This document shows positions 11,777-52,797 of a stretch of 64,000 nucleotides of DNA, in pieces. Origin of the DNA: Candidatus Manganitrophus noduliformans (GTDB taxonomy: Bacteria > Nitrospirota > Nitrospiria > SBBL01 > Manganitrophaceae). Position 1 is the first letter of the stretch; every line of letters starts with the position of its first letter. The notes beneath the pieces were generated by a model. It ran no database searches. It worked only from the letters and a program-made list of their open reading frames with translations, and was not told where the DNA came from. The stretch is taken from contig NZ_VTOW01000001.1 in NCBI RefSeq assembly GCF_012184425.1, positions 558,001 to 622,000 of the forward strand. The letters are read 5' to 3'. The position numbers and the translations under genes were made by a program.

Positions 11777-13491
11777 GTCTGAAGATCCCGCGGCGGGTCT
11801 ATGCCGAAATGTTCGGACCGACGACCGGCGACCGGGTCCGCCTGGCCGACACCGACTTGATCATCCGGATCGAACGGGACCTGACCGTTTATGGGGACGA
11901 ATGCAAGTTCGGCGGGGGGAAAGTTCTCCGCGACGGGATGGGGCAGTCGGTCGGGGCGACGTCGGAACAAGGGGCGCTCGATTTGATTATCACGAATGCG
12001 TTGATCCTCGATTACTGGGGGATCGTGAAGGCCGATATCGGGATCAAGGGAGGCCGGATCGTCGGAATTGGAAAAGGGGGGAATCCGGAGATCATGGACG
12101 GCGTGACCGCCGGGATGGTGGTCGGCGCCGCCACCGAAGTGATCGCCGGCGAGGGGATGATTGTCACCGCCGGCGGGATCGACTCCCATATCCACTTCAT
12201 TTGCCCGCAGCAGATCGATGAAGCCATCACCTCCGGGATTACGACAATGATCGGCGGCGGGACGGGACCGGCCACCGGGACGAACGCGACCACCTGCACC
12301 CCGGGGCCGTGGAATCTCGCCCGGATGCTCCAGGCGGCCGACGGCTTTCCGATCAACCTTGGTTTTCTCGGAAAGGGGAACGCGTCGTCGACGGCGCCGC
12401 TGGAGGAGCAGATCCTCGGCGGAGCGATCGGGTTGAAGCTGCATGAAGATTGGGGTACCACCCCGCGCGCCATCGACACCGCGCTCACAGTCGCCGATCG
12501 GTTCGATGTCCAGGTGGCGATTCATACCGATACCTTGAACGAGGCCGGTTTCGTCGAGGCGACGATCGAGGCGATCGCCGGGAGGACGATCCATGCCTAT
12601 CACACCGAAGGAGCCGGCGGCGGACATGCCCCCGATATTATCCGCCTCTGCGGGGAGGCGAACATCCTGCCGGGATCAACCAATCCAACCCGGCCGTTCA
12701 CGGTCAACACGATCGACGAACATCTCGACATGCTGATGGTCTGCCATCACCTCGATCCTTCGCTCCCGGAAGATGTCGCCTTTGCCGACTCCCGGATTCG
12801 CCCCGAGACGATCATGGCGGAGGATATTCTTCACGATCTCGGCGCCTTTTCGATCATGGCCTCCGACTCCCAGGCGATGGGGCGGGTGGGGGAGGTGATC
12901 CTCCGGACCTGGCAGACGGCGAGCAAGATGAAGGGACAGCGCGGCCCGCTGCCGGAAGAGGGGGAAGGAAGCGACAACCTCCGGGCGCGGCGGTACATCG
13001 CCAAATACACGATCAATCCGGCGATCGCGCATGGGATCGCCGACGAGGTCGGATCGCTCGAAGTGGGAAAGCTGGCCGATCTGGTCCTCTGGCGGCCGGC
13101 GTTTTTCGGGGTGAAGCCGGAGCGGGTGGTGAAGGGGGGTATGATTCTCCGGGCGGCGATGGGCGATCCGAACGCCTCGATCCCGACCCCGCAGCCGGTC
13201 CTCTACCGTCCGATGTTCGGCGCCTTCGGGGGCGCTCCCTATGAAAACAGCATCACCTTTCTCTCCAAGGCGGCGGCGGAGACCGGCCTCGCGGCGAGCC
13301 TGGAGCTGAGGAAAAGAACTGTTGCGGTGCAGGGTTGCCGGCGGATCGGGAAACGGGAGATGTGGCTGAACGATGCGCTCCCGCGGATCGAGGTGAACCC
13401 GGAGACCTACGAGGTCAGGGCCGACGGGGTTCTACTGCGCTGCGAGCCGGCACAGAAGCTGCCGATGGCGCAGCGGTATTTTTTGTTTTAA
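11773..13491 (+). CDS. ureC: Urease alpha (catalytic) subunit
   Basis: The 572-residue catalytic subunit carries the dinuclear nickel site. The nickel ligands can be read: HIHFICPQQ (first two His), KLHEDWGTT with the Lys that is carbamylated, [12 protein letters not shown] and the His-rich [12 protein letters not shown], and [12 protein letters not shown] with the last Asp. The flap segment [20 protein letters not shown] contains the mobile Cys and catalytic His. The length equals that of bacterial alpha subunits (about 570). Nothing suggests inactivation. It is followed by a copy of the 28-bp palindrome before ureF. Confidence 0.98.
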
Positions 13492-15144: not shown

Positions 15145-17706
15145 CTACTCCACTAAAATCCCTTCCGAGTACTTCACGCCGTCGGTCTCCGGCACATCTC
15201 CCATGTTGTGATCGACCAATACGGGAACCGAGTTGAGGTCGATGCTGTCGGCAACGCTGATGTCGAGATCGCCTGGATCATTCTCCAGGACGGCCAAGAA
15301 CTGGCTGACCTCCAGCGGTTTCACCAGGTAGCCCTTGGTCTGATCATCGGCATCGGTGACCTGGGTGCCGGCCGGGATGTTAATGATCTTATTGGAGATA
15401 TCCTCCGTCATCACGTGACCGTTCTTGAAGAGCTCGTGGAAGAGATCCGGCAAGCCGTGCATCCAGCCGTCATACTGAAGCGCGAGAGACTTTTCCTCTC
15501 CCGCATTGTTGGTCAACGTCACCGGCAGGAGGCGAACCGGGTCGCTCAGCAGGACGTAGTTGTTGCTGGCATCTTTGAGGTATTGCTGACTTCCCCACAT
15601 GTCTCCCTCTCTTGGGTAGTCCCAGTTAAACTGGTTGGTTGTCTGGTTGCCGTTGACATAAGCGACCAGTCCCCACTGCCCATTCGTGACCACTTGCCCC
15701 ACCTGAGGAGCGGGGTTCGAGGATTGATCCGTCTGGCCGATCGTTTTGTAGACCAGCTTCATGAAATTGGCGCTGTTCGGATCGGTAACGAATTCAAACG
15801 TCGATTCGGTGTCCGGCGACCAAGACGACTTGAAGACGGTGCCGGTTGGGACAAAGGTCGAAGCGTTTACCGGATTTGCCGTGCTCTGAATCTCGATCTT
15901 CACCTCGTAACCGGTGCTGGTCCGCTTGACGATATAATTGGCCCCCCGGCTGTTGATGTAGAACTCCCGGTCGAGCGGCATGGTGTAAGGCTTGTCGCCC
16001 GTCTCGCTAGGGGCGAACTCGGGTGTCCAGGTCTCGGTATCGAAACCGGTTAACGTTTTCTCAACCCAGCCGGTTCCGTTGTACATGATGTAGATCGACC
16101 CGCCGATGTTGACCCAGAGAAATTCATTGTCGCTCGGCGTATAAAGAGTCGAGGTCGCGGTGGTCCTTCCAGTGGAAGAATCGAACGTGCCGACGTAGAA
16201 ACCGGCGCCGCTCGGCCCGTCCGCCAGATAGACGTAGTTGGTCGGTGGGTTATTTTGATCACAACCGTTGCATTGATTGATATTCACGAACTTTCTATTG
16301 TCGTTCTCGCCGACAATCAGTGAATCGAACGCCGTGAATTTGCTGGCGCAATTCTGCTGGAAAAACCCGGTATCTGGGTCGAAGGTATGGGTGCATTCAT
16401 ACCAACCCGCCCCGTCCGGCCCCGATGCGAGATATCGGAGCTCGAAATTCGAATTGACCCAGGTTTCGACCGGGATTCCCTTGACGTCATTGACATTGGC
16501 CGCGACCGCCGTCCGCTTCGTTAGGGTTCCAACGAATGGGGCCGAGACGGTGTAGGTCTCCGCATTCTGCTGCGGTCCTCTGTCTTGACGGGTGACCGTC
16601 GTCCCCTGAGGGATCGTTCCACCGTCGGACCAGAGCGAATGACGACCCTGCCAGGCGCCATAGTAGGCGAACCGGTGGCGGCCCTCGCCGTCGGTGTAGT
16701 CCACGGGGAAGCCGAATGACTTGGTCTTCATAATATCCTGGCCGGTTGTGCTGTCGAACAGACCGTAACGATGGGTCATGTCGTTGACGGAAGTCCGGTC
16801 TTTATATTGAACGGCGCCCTCTGCTTTTTGAAGGGCCAAGTGGTTCGCGTTGTAGGCATATTTTGCGACCACCGGGGCCGGGTTGCAGTCGGGCTGATGG
16901 CAGCTCTCCCAATCGGGGAACATCACCTTGCCATAACCATCCGTCTCAGACCGATTCATAATCGCCTTCATTTCATGGGGAGGCGCATCGGTCGATTCGG
17001 TCTGGCGCTCGTTGATGCGAATGACGGAGCGGCCGTTTGCATCGACACCGGCATCCGCCGCAAAGAAGGAGTCGGGTGAATCGCCAAATTTGACATTGAG
17101 CTTCCAAACGCCGTAGTCGCTATAGGAGCCATCTTCCTTGCGTGTCGCCGATTGGTATATTTTAAACTCGGCTTTAATGAGACGGTTGATGTCGGCCTCG
17201 TCGATCCAAACCCGGACGCGATTGACGTCCTGGCCGTCCTCCTCAATCATCGCCGAATCGACGACCCACGGCTCCAGACTCTTGGTCTGGACGCCGTTCT
17301 GCTCGTCCTGGAAGGAGACCATCGCTTTGTACGGTCCCTGATTGACGTTGGCCTCGTCGGCGTAGTTCGTCTGAGCCAGCGCTGCGAGGACCTCTTCGAT
17401 GATATCGAACTGCTCCAGCGTGTGCTCGTTCACATATTTGCGGGTGACGGCCTTGCTGTAATCTGTGTTCGGGTCGGTCGCCGCCTGCTTCAACGCGGAG
17501 AGCTTTGATTTCAACCCCGGCTTGGTGACCCCTCCGACGCTTCCGGAAAGATTGGTCGGCACCGCCGAGATTTCGGTCGGCACCTCGAAGCCGGCCGACT
17601 GAGAGCCACCACCACCCGATGAACTGCTTCCTCCTCCGCCTCCGCAGGCAGCCAGACTGAGGCTTAAGATCAACGAAGCCGAAGCCACTGCAAGTAACCT
17701 ATTCAT
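15145..17706 (-). CDS. Large repeat-containing lipoprotein, function unknown, under c-di-GMP riboswitch
   Basis: An 853-residue exported lipoprotein that I cannot assign to a family. The signal peptide ends in the lipobox LAAC at about 18-21, and the acylated Cys is followed by a flexible Gly/Ser run. In the middle, about residues 420-570, three related units occur: WVN...RYLASGPDGAGWY...FDPDTG, FVN...VYLADGPSGAGFY...FDSSTG and WVN...IYIMYNGTGWV...FDTET. Cysteines are few and partly paired (SCHQPDC, CNGCDQ); there is no CXXCH, so it is not a cytochrome. AGGAGG precedes the ATG. A c-di-GMP-I aptamer and terminator lie in its 260-nt leader, which suggests a surface role in attachment or matrix. 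That role is inference. It converges with the urease operon. Confidence 0.85.
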   Translation of the reverse strand: MNRLLAVASASLILSLSLAACGGGGGSSSSGGGGSQSAGFEVPTEISAVPTNLSGSVGGVTKPGLKSKLSALKQAATDPNTDYSKAVTRKYVNEHTLEQFDIIEEVLAALAQTNYADEANVNQGPYKAMVSFQDEQNGVQTKSLEPWVVDSAMIEEDGQDVNRVRVWIDEADINRLIKAEFKIYQSATRKEDGSYSDYGVWKLNVKFGDSPDSFFAADAGVDANGRSVIRINERQTESTDAPPHEMKAIMNRSETDGYGKVMFPDWESCHQPDCNPAPVVAKYAYNANHLALQKAEGAVQYKDRTSVNDMTHRYGLFDSTTGQDIMKTKSFGFPVDYTDGEGRHRFAYYGAWQGRHSLWSDGGTIPQGTTVTRQDRGPQQNAETYTVSAPFVGTLTKRTAVAANVNDVKGIPVETWVNSNFELRYLASGPDGAGWYECTHTFDPDTGFFQQNCASKFTAFDSLIVGENDNRKFVNINQCNGCDQNNPPTNYVYLADGPSGAGFYVGTFDSSTGRTTATSTLYTPSDNEFLWVNIGGSIYIMYNGTGWVEKTLTGFDTETWTPEFAPSETGDKPYTMPLDREFYINSRGANYIVKRTSTGYEVKIEIQSTANPVNASTFVPTGTVFKSSWSPDTESTFEFVTDPNSANFMKLVYKTIGQTDQSSNPAPQVGQVVTNGQWGLVAYVNGNQTTNQFNWDYPREGDMWGSQQYLKDASNNYVLLSDPVRLLPVTLTNNAGEEKSLALQYDGWMHGLPDLFHELFKNGHVMTEDISNKIINIPAGTQVTDADDQTKGYLVKPLEVSQFLAVLENDPGDLDISVADSIDLNSVPVLVDHNMGDVPETDGVKYSEGILVE

Positions 17707-17785
17707 TTGTTGCCTCCTGTTTGTGTTTCGATGTGTTCTCTCGGACGACCTAGAAATGGGCAGCCTCTCGTTTGCATCCTTGCAA

Positions 17786-17824
17786 AATAAAAAAGCCCAT
17801 TTCCAAACTCTAGAAATGGGCTGC
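17786..17824 (-). terminator. Riboswitch-controlled intrinsic terminator
   Basis: On the minus strand GCCCATTTC (17821-17813) pairs with GAAATGGGC (17803-17795) across a 9-nt loop. A run of six U, then A and four U follows (17794-17784). Its 5' side (GCAGCCCA, 17824-17817) is also exactly complementary to TGGGCTGC at the 3' end of the upstream aptamer (17872-17865), so aptamer unfolding can block it. A second copy of the 5' arm, GCCCATTTCTAG, recurs downstream at 17750-17761. Confidence 0.88.
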
Positions 17825-17861
17825 GCATATAAATAAGGATAGAGCGATTCTTATTTATCCA

Positions 17862-17946
17862 GGGCAGCCCAACTAGCATGCCGGCGACTCCTTTCGCCCG
17901 GCGAAGCCTTGAAGCTTTGCGCCCCAACCTTTCGGTTGGTTTGCCT
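17862..17946 (-). ncRNA. c-di-GMP-I (GEMM) riboswitch aptamer
   Basis: Read on the minus strand, the element carries the GEMM-I signature in order: GGCAAACC (17945-17938), a short stem capped by a GAAA tetraloop (CCAACCGAAAGGTTGG), GGGGCGCAAAGC, a variable second stem containing GCGAAAGGAGTCGC, and the closing GCTAGTTGGGCTGCC (17876-17862). The base at the position equivalent to Vc2 G20, just before CAAACC, is G, as in c-di-GMP-binding rather than A20 cGAMP-selective members. It lies about 160 nt upstream of the 853-residue lipoprotein gene. Promoter, aptamer, antiterminator and terminator follow one another in the expected order. Confidence 0.92.
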
Positions 17947-17977
17947 TTATCTTGGATTCAGACTTTGTTCGTGGTAA

Positions 17978-18005
17978 AAGATACCAAAAAGTAATATTTT
18001 GTCAA
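17978..18005 (-). promoter_or_regulatory. Promoter of the riboswitch leader
   Basis: Minus-strand TTGACA (18005-18000), a 16-bp spacer and TATCTT (17983-17978). Transcription would begin near 17971, about 25 nt before the aptamer. The same hexamer pair with the same spacer is found upstream of the REC-GGDEF gene at 51667-51694. A second TTGACA on the plus strand (18031-18036) faces the opposite way, toward the gene at 18066. Confidence 0.75.
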
Positions 18006-18065
18006 GGGCGGAAGAGGAAAAAAGAGACCTTTGACAAAGATTGTTCAATGCCGTAGTCTCAACGG

Positions 18066-18521
18066 ATGCAGAAACGGTTTGTATCCTTCTCCCTTTTTGT
18101 TATTTTTCTCCTCCAGGCGTTCTTCGGCTGCTCGCCGGCCCGGTTTCTTTCCAAACCGGAATGGCGCCTGCAAGGAATTCGGATCGACCGGATCGATCTT
18201 TCGGGGGCCTCGGTGGGTCTGGCTCTACGCATTACCAATCCGAACCCCGTCGGCGTGACCGTCCGGCATCTGACGTATCAATTTTATTTACATGAAGTGA
18301 AAATTGCGGAGGGAGAGATGACAGCCCCCTTCGAGCTGCCGAGGCACGAATCGATCGATGTTGTCCTGCCGGTGCAGATGAGCTTCAAAGAGGCGCGCGA
18401 GCTGGCGCCGCTATTGAGACAAAAAACGGAGGAGATCGACTATCGATTAGAGGGGGAGATCACCTTGCAGGCAATGGGGACGGAGAAGCGTTTTCAGCTT
18501 CATCATGCTGGAAAGAGGTAA
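18066..18521 (+). CDS. LEA14-like (water-stress/hypersensitive-response domain) lipoprotein
   Basis: A 151-residue exported protein with the lipobox-like FFGC after a hydrophobic leader (MQKRFVSFSLFVIFLLQAFFGC). The rest fits the LEA-2 domain: a beta-sandwich pattern around GIRIDRIDLSGASVGLALRITNPNPVGVTVRHLTYQFYL, where the N-P-N-P-x-G-V sequence is diagnostic. Bacterial members are small periplasmic lipoproteins without a proven function; some have been tied to desiccation tolerance. TTGACA at 18031-18036 with a poor -10 (TAGTCT, 18053-18058) would start the mRNA at about the ATG, so the message may be leaderless. It ends 11 bp from the converging rnd gene. Confidence 0.75.
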   Translation: MQKRFVSFSLFVIFLLQAFFGCSPARFLSKPEWRLQGIRIDRIDLSGASVGLALRITNPNPVGVTVRHLTYQFYLHEVKIAEGEMTAPFELPRHESIDVVLPVQMSFKEARELAPLLRQKTEEIDYRLEGEITLQAMGTEKRFQLHHAGKR

Positions 18522-51840: not shown

Positions 51841-52797
51841 ATGGCCAAGATCCTGGTCGTTGACGATAGCGCGTTTGAGGCCAAGCACTCCAAGGTTCTG
51901 CTCGAAAGAGAGGGCCATGAGGTCCTGATCGCCGAAAACGGGATGCAGGGCATGAAGTTGATCAAACTTGAGCGGCCCGATTTGATTCTCCTCGATTTGG
52001 TGCTTCCCGATATCTCCGGTCGAGAGGTCTGCCGGTGGGCAAAGTTGAATGTCGAGTCGCAATCGATCCCGATTATTATCTTGACTGCCCGGACCGAAGT
52101 CAAGGAGCGTGTGGCCGGACTGGAAGACGGGGCGAACGATTATGTCACCAAACCGTGCGATGATTCGGAGCTGAAGGCGCGGATCGACGCCGTTCTCCGC
52201 GAGAAGACCCTCCGTGATCAGCTTGAGAAGAAGAACACGGAGTATGAGGAGCTGATGCGGAAATTCGAGCGGATGGCGATTACCGATCCGGTGACCGGTC
52301 TTTTCAACCGAAGGCGGTTCGAGGAGATGCTGGCCCAGGAGTTCGAGCGCTACCGCCGCTATGGGACTCCATTTACCTGCCTCATGATCGATGTCGATCA
52401 TTTCAAAAGAATCAATGACACTTACGGCCATGACGTCGGCGATCTGGTTTTAAAGGAGACGGCACAGACGATCCAGGCGCAGATCCGGGGGGTTGATACG
52501 GTTTCCCGGTATGGAGGGGATGAATTCGCGGTGCTTCTCTCCCAGCAGAAAGGAGAGGAGGCGGTGAAGGCGGCGGGGCGGATCCTCAGACATGTCAGGC
52601 AGCTTCGCTTCAAAGAGATGAAAAAGGGGGAAAAAATTACGTTGAGCATCGGAATCGCGGCGCTGCCAGACCCCGACTTGAAGGAGATGGATCAGATTAT
52701 GCCATGCGCCGATTATGCCCTCTACAAAGCCAAAAAAAACGGAAGAGACTGTGCGGAATCGGCCACGGTCCATGAATCCAATCAAGATCCCCAGTAA
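51841..52797 (+). CDS. Response regulator with diguanylate cyclase output (REC-GGDEF)
   Basis: A 318-residue PleD-like regulator that should make c-di-GMP when phosphorylated. REC at 1-120: LVVDDSAFE (acidic pair), LLDLVLP (phospho-Asp), TAR and TKPCD (Lys). A short coiled linker (EKKNTEYEELMRKFERMA) leads to GGDEF at about 150-310: DPVTGLFNRRRFEE, MIDVDHFKRINDTYGHDVGD, an intact RYGGDEF and the inhibitory RxxD (RGVD) exactly five residues before it, so product inhibition is expected. ATG 51841 is chosen because REC starts there and GAGGAGCAAGG precedes it. No partner kinase is adjacent. Confidence 0.95.
   Translation: MAKILVVDDSAFEAKHSKVLLEREGHEVLIAENGMQGMKLIKLERPDLILLDLVLPDISGREVCRWAKLNVESQSIPIIILTARTEVKERVAGLEDGANDYVTKPCDDSELKARIDAVLREKTLRDQLEKKNTEYEELMRKFERMAITDPVTGLFNRRRFEEMLAQEFERYRRYGTPFTCLMIDVDHFKRINDTYGHDVGDLVLKETAQTIQAQIRGVDTVSRYGGDEFAVLLSQQKGEEAVKAAGRILRHVRQLRFKEMKKGEKITLSIGIAALPDPDLKEMDQIMPCADYALYKAKKNGRDCAESATVHESNQDPQ

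Follow-up and report, generated by a model that had tools for sequence, protein, structure and literature searches.

Locus and layout of the leader

The window analysed here is the whole 64,000-nucleotide stretch C1:558001-622000 of the 5.17 Mb genome of Candidatus Manganitrophus noduliformans. On its minus strand a promoter, a GEMM-I aptamer, an antiterminator, an intrinsic terminator and the gene of an 853-aa lipoprotein follow one another in this order, and a LEA_2-domain gene (18066-18521) is divergent from this leader. Candidatus Manganitrophus sp. GAC4 (CP114561.1, L073), of the class Nitrospiria, is a close relative among the loci compared. The features are as follows.

17978..18005, minus strand: sigma-70-type promoter, TTGACA (18005-18000), 16-nt spacer, TATCTT (17983-17978)
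17857..17957 (approximate), minus strand: c-di-GMP-I (GEMM-I) aptamer, matched by RF01051 (71.1 bits) and RF03167 (62.0 bits), with covariation in P2
17864..17871, minus strand: switching strand TGGGCTGC, comprising the 3' base of P3, G91 and C92, which has two alternative partners, one within the aptamer and the other the antiterminator arm
17829..17858, minus strand: upper antiterminator stem ATAAATAAG/CTTATTTAT with its loop; other stems stand here in other genera
17817..17824, minus strand: antiterminator 3' arm GCAGCCCA, whose last five bases are the start of the terminator
17784..17821, minus strand: intrinsic terminator, GCCCATTTC and GAAATGGGC around a loop, then the tract TTTTTTATTTT
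15145..17706, minus strand: gene predicted to be controlled, encoding an exported lipoprotein of 853 aa, mostly beta-strand, with a lipobox (LAAC) before a Gly/Ser-rich stretch; Shine-Dalgarno sequence AGGAGG at 17718-17713

The promoter, which a preliminary description of this DNA had claimed, is present and is the sole promoter-like site detected in 17600-18200. A TTGACA-type -35 element with a -10-like hexamer is also found upstream of most orthologous leaders. The entire leader is unusually stable (folding z = -3.06; 0 of 200 shuffles equally stable), and about 80 nt separate the end of the terminator from the lipoprotein gene. Directly after the terminator lies GGCTGCCCATTTCTAGG (17765-17749, minus strand), which imperfectly repeats the antiterminator arm and the 5' half of the terminator. 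This copy is retained with changes in close kin and was not seen in more distant leaders.

By protein search, the lipoprotein is distributed in the Nitrospiria and occurs sporadically in MAGs of Gamma- and Deltaproteobacteria. No credible relatives were found in Pfam, NCBIfam, a PDB sequence search or Foldseek with the AlphaFold2 model, which is mostly beta-strand and of moderate confidence (mean pLDDT 73.8, pTM 0.54). The nine loci of distant homologues (Gamma- and Deltaproteobacteria, remote Nitrospirota) contain no GEMM aptamer. Elsewhere in the window, an Rfam match to 5_ureB_sRNA (11926-12223, minus strand, 98.1 bits) is antisense to an apparent ureC frame and may merely mirror the conservation of the urease coding sequence.

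Mutually exclusive helices and their conservation

The antiterminator consists of an outer helix of eight perfect pairs, in which TGGGCTGC (17871-17864) meets GCAGCCCA (17824-17817), and an upper stem of nine perfect pairs between 17858-17850 and 17837-17829. Its energy is -20.7 kcal/mol, 4.1 sd below dinucleotide shuffles. In the terminator, GCCCATTTC (17821-17813) and GAAATGGGC (17803-17795) form at least nine pairs, followed by the T tract. Antiterminator and terminator are mutually exclusive because GCCCA (17821-17817) is common to both, and antiterminator and aptamer exclude each other because they share 17871-17864. The aptamer and the terminator have no base in common and can therefore coexist. 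The switching strand contains the ligand-pairing residue C92, with P1 (ATCCA 17957-17953/TGGAT 17861-17857) just outside the strand, and the antiterminator reaches into the base of P3 through UGGGCUGC of this strand. Two exclusive structures had been proposed from the letters alone, one formed by the aptamer's 3' strand and an extending stem, the other a hairpin with a U-run; both stand at the proposed place, and both are conserved and covarying in orthologous leaders.

Orthologues of the lipoprotein were located by protein search and their leaders were then read. The same order of aptamer, antiterminator and terminator occurs in 17 leaders from eight genera and four families of Nitrospiria, most of them with a recognisable promoter. 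In L091 and L097 a GEMM-I aptamer is present and the terminator is different or not recognisable. In the alignment of 16 leaders from which the pairing statistics were taken, 96.9% of the cells of the outer antiterminator helix are paired, compared with 26-48% after the partner strand has been shifted by 1-3 columns. Double changes were counted in 12 cells of this helix versus 3.3 in shuffles, a contrast whose weight the shuffle control overstates, as the leaders are related and the counts represent few independent events. In two neighbouring pairs both bases vary (U-A to C-G; G-C to A-U, with G-U intermediates).

Column 96 of the alignment, position 90 of the aptamer, is U in six leaders and C in ten. 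In all ten the C breaks the aptamer pair A49-U90, whose partner stays A, and exactly these ten leaders have G in place of A at the antiterminator partner of position 90. This compensation in 10 of 16 leaders therefore argues for selection on the antiterminator helix itself, beyond the needs of the aptamer. The inner stem varies in sequence between genera with pairing predicted in all of them, and the antiterminator segment is stabler than the shuffle mean in 17/17 leaders (z -1.3 to -6.1). The terminator helix is paired in 100% of cells and has two pairs with double changes, including GTTC/GAAC in L095. Sequence and comparison thus establish both the exclusive helices and their conservation before the same gene.

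Ligand pocket and predicted sign of the switch

The GEMM-I aptamer named in the preliminary description was recovered by the covariance-model search that it had suggested. The match to RF01051 (c-di-GMP-I) reached 71.1 bits (E 1.1e-13, genome-wide) against a curated cut-off of 35 bits; that to RF03167 (c-di-GMP-I-GGC) reached 62.0 bits (E 6.0e-14) against 59 bits. The main family is thus 9 bits higher and the E-value of the GGC variant slightly lower, and an Rfam scan with clan competition names RF03167 for the window aptamer. The three-way fold of P1, P2 (with a GAAA loop) and P3 is present, and three P2 pairs vary on both sides among the leaders. In Vc2 numbering, mapped in this analysis from the model alignment, the pocket residues are G20 (17945), A47 (17918) and C92 (17864), the c-di-GMP set. 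The aptamer class and these residues are established by sequence and comparison.

The window RNA resembles RF03167 in overall fold and scores just over its cut-off, but differs from it at one base of the core: the model consensus is GCGAAGC, whereas the window RNA has GCAAAGC. The differing base is position 47, which is A in the window and in 16/16 aligned leaders and G in the RF03167 consensus. In the Vc2 structure the base at position 47 is sandwiched between the two nucleobases of the ligand. The name GGC presumably denotes positions 20, 47 and 92. We rejected the GGC-variant identity on the grounds of fewer bits than RF01051 and the missing consensus G47. The cGAMP (GEMM-Ib) specificity of the window copy was rejected as well, since A20 is required and 17945 is G. 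G at position 20 goes with a preference for c-di-GMP and A with one for c-AMP-GMP, and homologous Desulfobacca aptamers that differ at this position shift their preference in in-line probing (PMC9481103).

Position 20 is not G in three orthologous leaders: it is A in L085/L066 and L095 and C in L086/L067. The equivalent Cd1 mutations G11A and G11C had no large effect (PMC9262584), so these orthologues may still bind c-di-GMP. All three variants retain the platform and the gene of the window switch. A near-copy of the riboswitch and its platform, with G20, precedes a different, 468-aa lipoprotein in L053 (G034:C62:89129); in the same genome the orthologous copy of the window switch has A20.

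It is unlikely, though the likeliest of the alternatives, that the same RNA and platform respond not, or not only, to c-di-GMP, and that the ligand of the GGC variant or 3',3'-cGAMP switches the gene off. The clan competition result is in its favour, as are the eight A20 aptamers and the Hypr-like GGDEF protein (Ser, L117) of the same genome and the A20 of two orthologous leaders. Against it stand the higher RF01051 score, the A at position 47 in the window and its orthologues, and G20, the residue tied to c-di-GMP preference (PMC9481103). The window RNA most likely senses c-di-GMP, ligand identity and binding being read from sequence.

Folding calculations with ViennaRNA bear on the sign. Folded as nascent chains that end with the antiterminator arm, before the terminator exists, the leaders have antiterminator probabilities of 0.72-0.99. 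Blocking the switching strand to imitate a ligand-bound aptamer gives a terminator probability of 0.98-1.00 in 17/17 leaders. The transcript model of the window has the antiterminator formed by nucleotide 157-159 and the terminator closing at about 181. Without ligand, the full-length window leader (longer construct) is near even at equilibrium, 0.51 vs 0.49; in the shorter construct the terminator is favoured, both for the window and for its close relatives. Given this balance, we assume that read-through must be decided kinetically. Kinetic control is normal for transcriptional riboswitches. In an energy model that leaves out tertiary contacts and ligand, the best alternatives are more stable than the closed aptamer by 8-10 kcal/mol, and a large contribution of both is therefore assumed. 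Since the antiterminator shares bases with both the aptamer and the terminator, anything that keeps this strand bound within the aptamer tips the balance towards the terminator; strand sharing and folding calculations thus bear out the earlier proposal that the aptamer's grip on this strand promotes termination.

We consider the leader to be a c-di-GMP-I riboswitch that turns transcription off through an expression platform of the Cd1 type, with a probability of about 0.82 that includes the predicted ligand and sign. We infer the start site and the direction in the cell: RNA polymerase would start shortly past the -10 box and transcribe the aptamer first. When c-di-GMP is present, it would pair with C92 and lock UGGGCUGC in the P3 base and the pocket. 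The locked strand would leave no antiterminator, the GCCCAUUUC/GAAAUGGGC hairpin would form and transcription would end before the lipoprotein gene. At low c-di-GMP, the freed UGGGCUGC would pair with the newly made GCAGCCCA about 20 nt before terminator closure; since this arm includes the 5' half of the G+C-rich terminator stem, the polymerase would read through.

The known counterpart is Cd1 of the flagellar operon of Clostridioides difficile, which was shown experimentally to be a transcriptional OFF c-di-GMP-I riboswitch; in Cd1 an antiterminator that pairs with the ligand-binding C87 competes against the aptamer and the terminator, which are compatible with each other (PMC9262584). The window has the same OFF anatomy, in which the antiterminator shares strands with both the aptamer and the terminator: it has a GEMM-I aptamer, a coexisting terminator, and an antiterminator that pairs the ligand-binding C and dismantles the pocket. 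It differs in phylum, target gene and stem sequences, and its antiterminator enters the base of P3 (UGGGCUGC) and is topped by a stem of variable sequence.

The sign is not guaranteed by the GEMM-I class, because in Bc1 of Bacillus c-di-GMP unfolds the terminators in SHAPE data (PMC11218506). The 3',3'-cGAMP (GEMM-Ib) riboswitches of Geobacter, pilM and others, are transcriptional ON switches (PMC9262584, PMC6456294). Their aptamer fold is near-identical and such RNAs also occur in the genome of the window, but they have A20 and the opposite sign, with a terminator that uses the aptamer's own 3' strand. An ON switch in the window, in which ligand binding promotes read-through, would agree with Bc1 and with most other GEMM-I leaders of the genome, whose ON-type terminators share the aptamer 3' strand. 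It is nevertheless very improbable, as the window terminator has no base in common with the aptamer, only the antiterminator overlaps the aptamer, and locking the switching strand drives every leader to the terminator. A constitutive terminator behind a decayed aptamer, with no regulation, would fit the equilibrium preference of the shorter construct and is also very improbable, since eight genera retain A47, C92 and every helix, and an RNA that does not switch would have no use for compensatory changes in its antiterminator.

The type of switch is known; new is a predicted and comparatively supported c-di-GMP transcriptional OFF switch in the Nitrospiria, a class that includes manganese oxidisers. 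It would tie c-di-GMP to a conserved exported lipoprotein without a known family.

Other GEMM-I leaders and tandem aptamers

The host genome contains 48 GGDEF domains and ten GEMM-I aptamers, two with G20 (the window and C3:207935) and eight with A20. A simple hairpin scan of 37 GEMM-I loci from this genome and its relatives found terminators for 25. The terminator is separate and downstream in 12/12 G20 loci and in the single C20 locus, and it overlaps the aptamer 3' strand, the pilM-type ON design, in 11 of 12 A20 loci; many of these loci are mutual orthologues, so that the numbers describe a pattern and carry no statistical weight. Two divergent GEMM-I-like RNAs, L014 (G000:C2:810798) and L015 (G000:C1:1856913), with 45.3 and 36.7 bits, have A20 and the atypical cores GAGCTACCC and TAGCACCCC. 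No c-di-GMP-II aptamer was found in the host genome, a weak negative as the control genomes likewise gave no match.

One GGDEF locus, L117 (G000:C4:65194-65667), has Ser at the base-selectivity position (GHLMGS), the sole case among 30 loci inspected. The cGAMP synthase of Geobacter has Ser instead of Asp at the equivalent position, and L117 is a lead as a candidate Hypr-type cGAMP synthase.

Tandem leaders were found in four other genomes of the genus.

L061, G005:C1:1017732: tandem leader
L062, G003 (CP114561.1), C1:3347788: tandem leader
L059, G002:C517:10415: tandem leader
L049, G004:C20:152470: tandem leader, first terminator shortened

Each of these leaders has first a G20 aptamer and a terminator belonging to it, and then, a short distance downstream, an A20 aptamer whose terminator is of the ON type. 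The gene after the tandem encodes, in at least three of the four genomes, an exported protein that appears fibronectin-III-like by eye. Provided that the residues indicate the ligands correctly, the tandem would act as a 'NOT c-di-GMP AND cGAMP' gate. PMC9481103 tabulates natural tandem gates, and the c-di-GMP/cGAMP pair is not among them; a literature search for mixed cGAMP/c-di-GMP tandems in Nitrospirota found none.

A lineage-wide rule can be proposed tentatively, at somewhat less than even odds: the sign would follow the messenger (G20 OFF, A20 ON), the tandem gate would operate in four genomes, and the swaps at position 20 would be natural rewirings of the messenger with the platform unchanged. 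One genome holds matched aptamers with opposite predicted output, OFF for the c-di-GMP type and ON for the cGAMP-like type, and its relatives combine both in tandem; this allows direct tests of what sets ligand specificity and of how the sign of a switch evolves. A similar aptamer pair with a promoter between the two aptamers occurs in L057. One of the 48 GGDEF domains is encoded in the window itself (52276-52749, plus strand, in a protein with a 337-aa frame).
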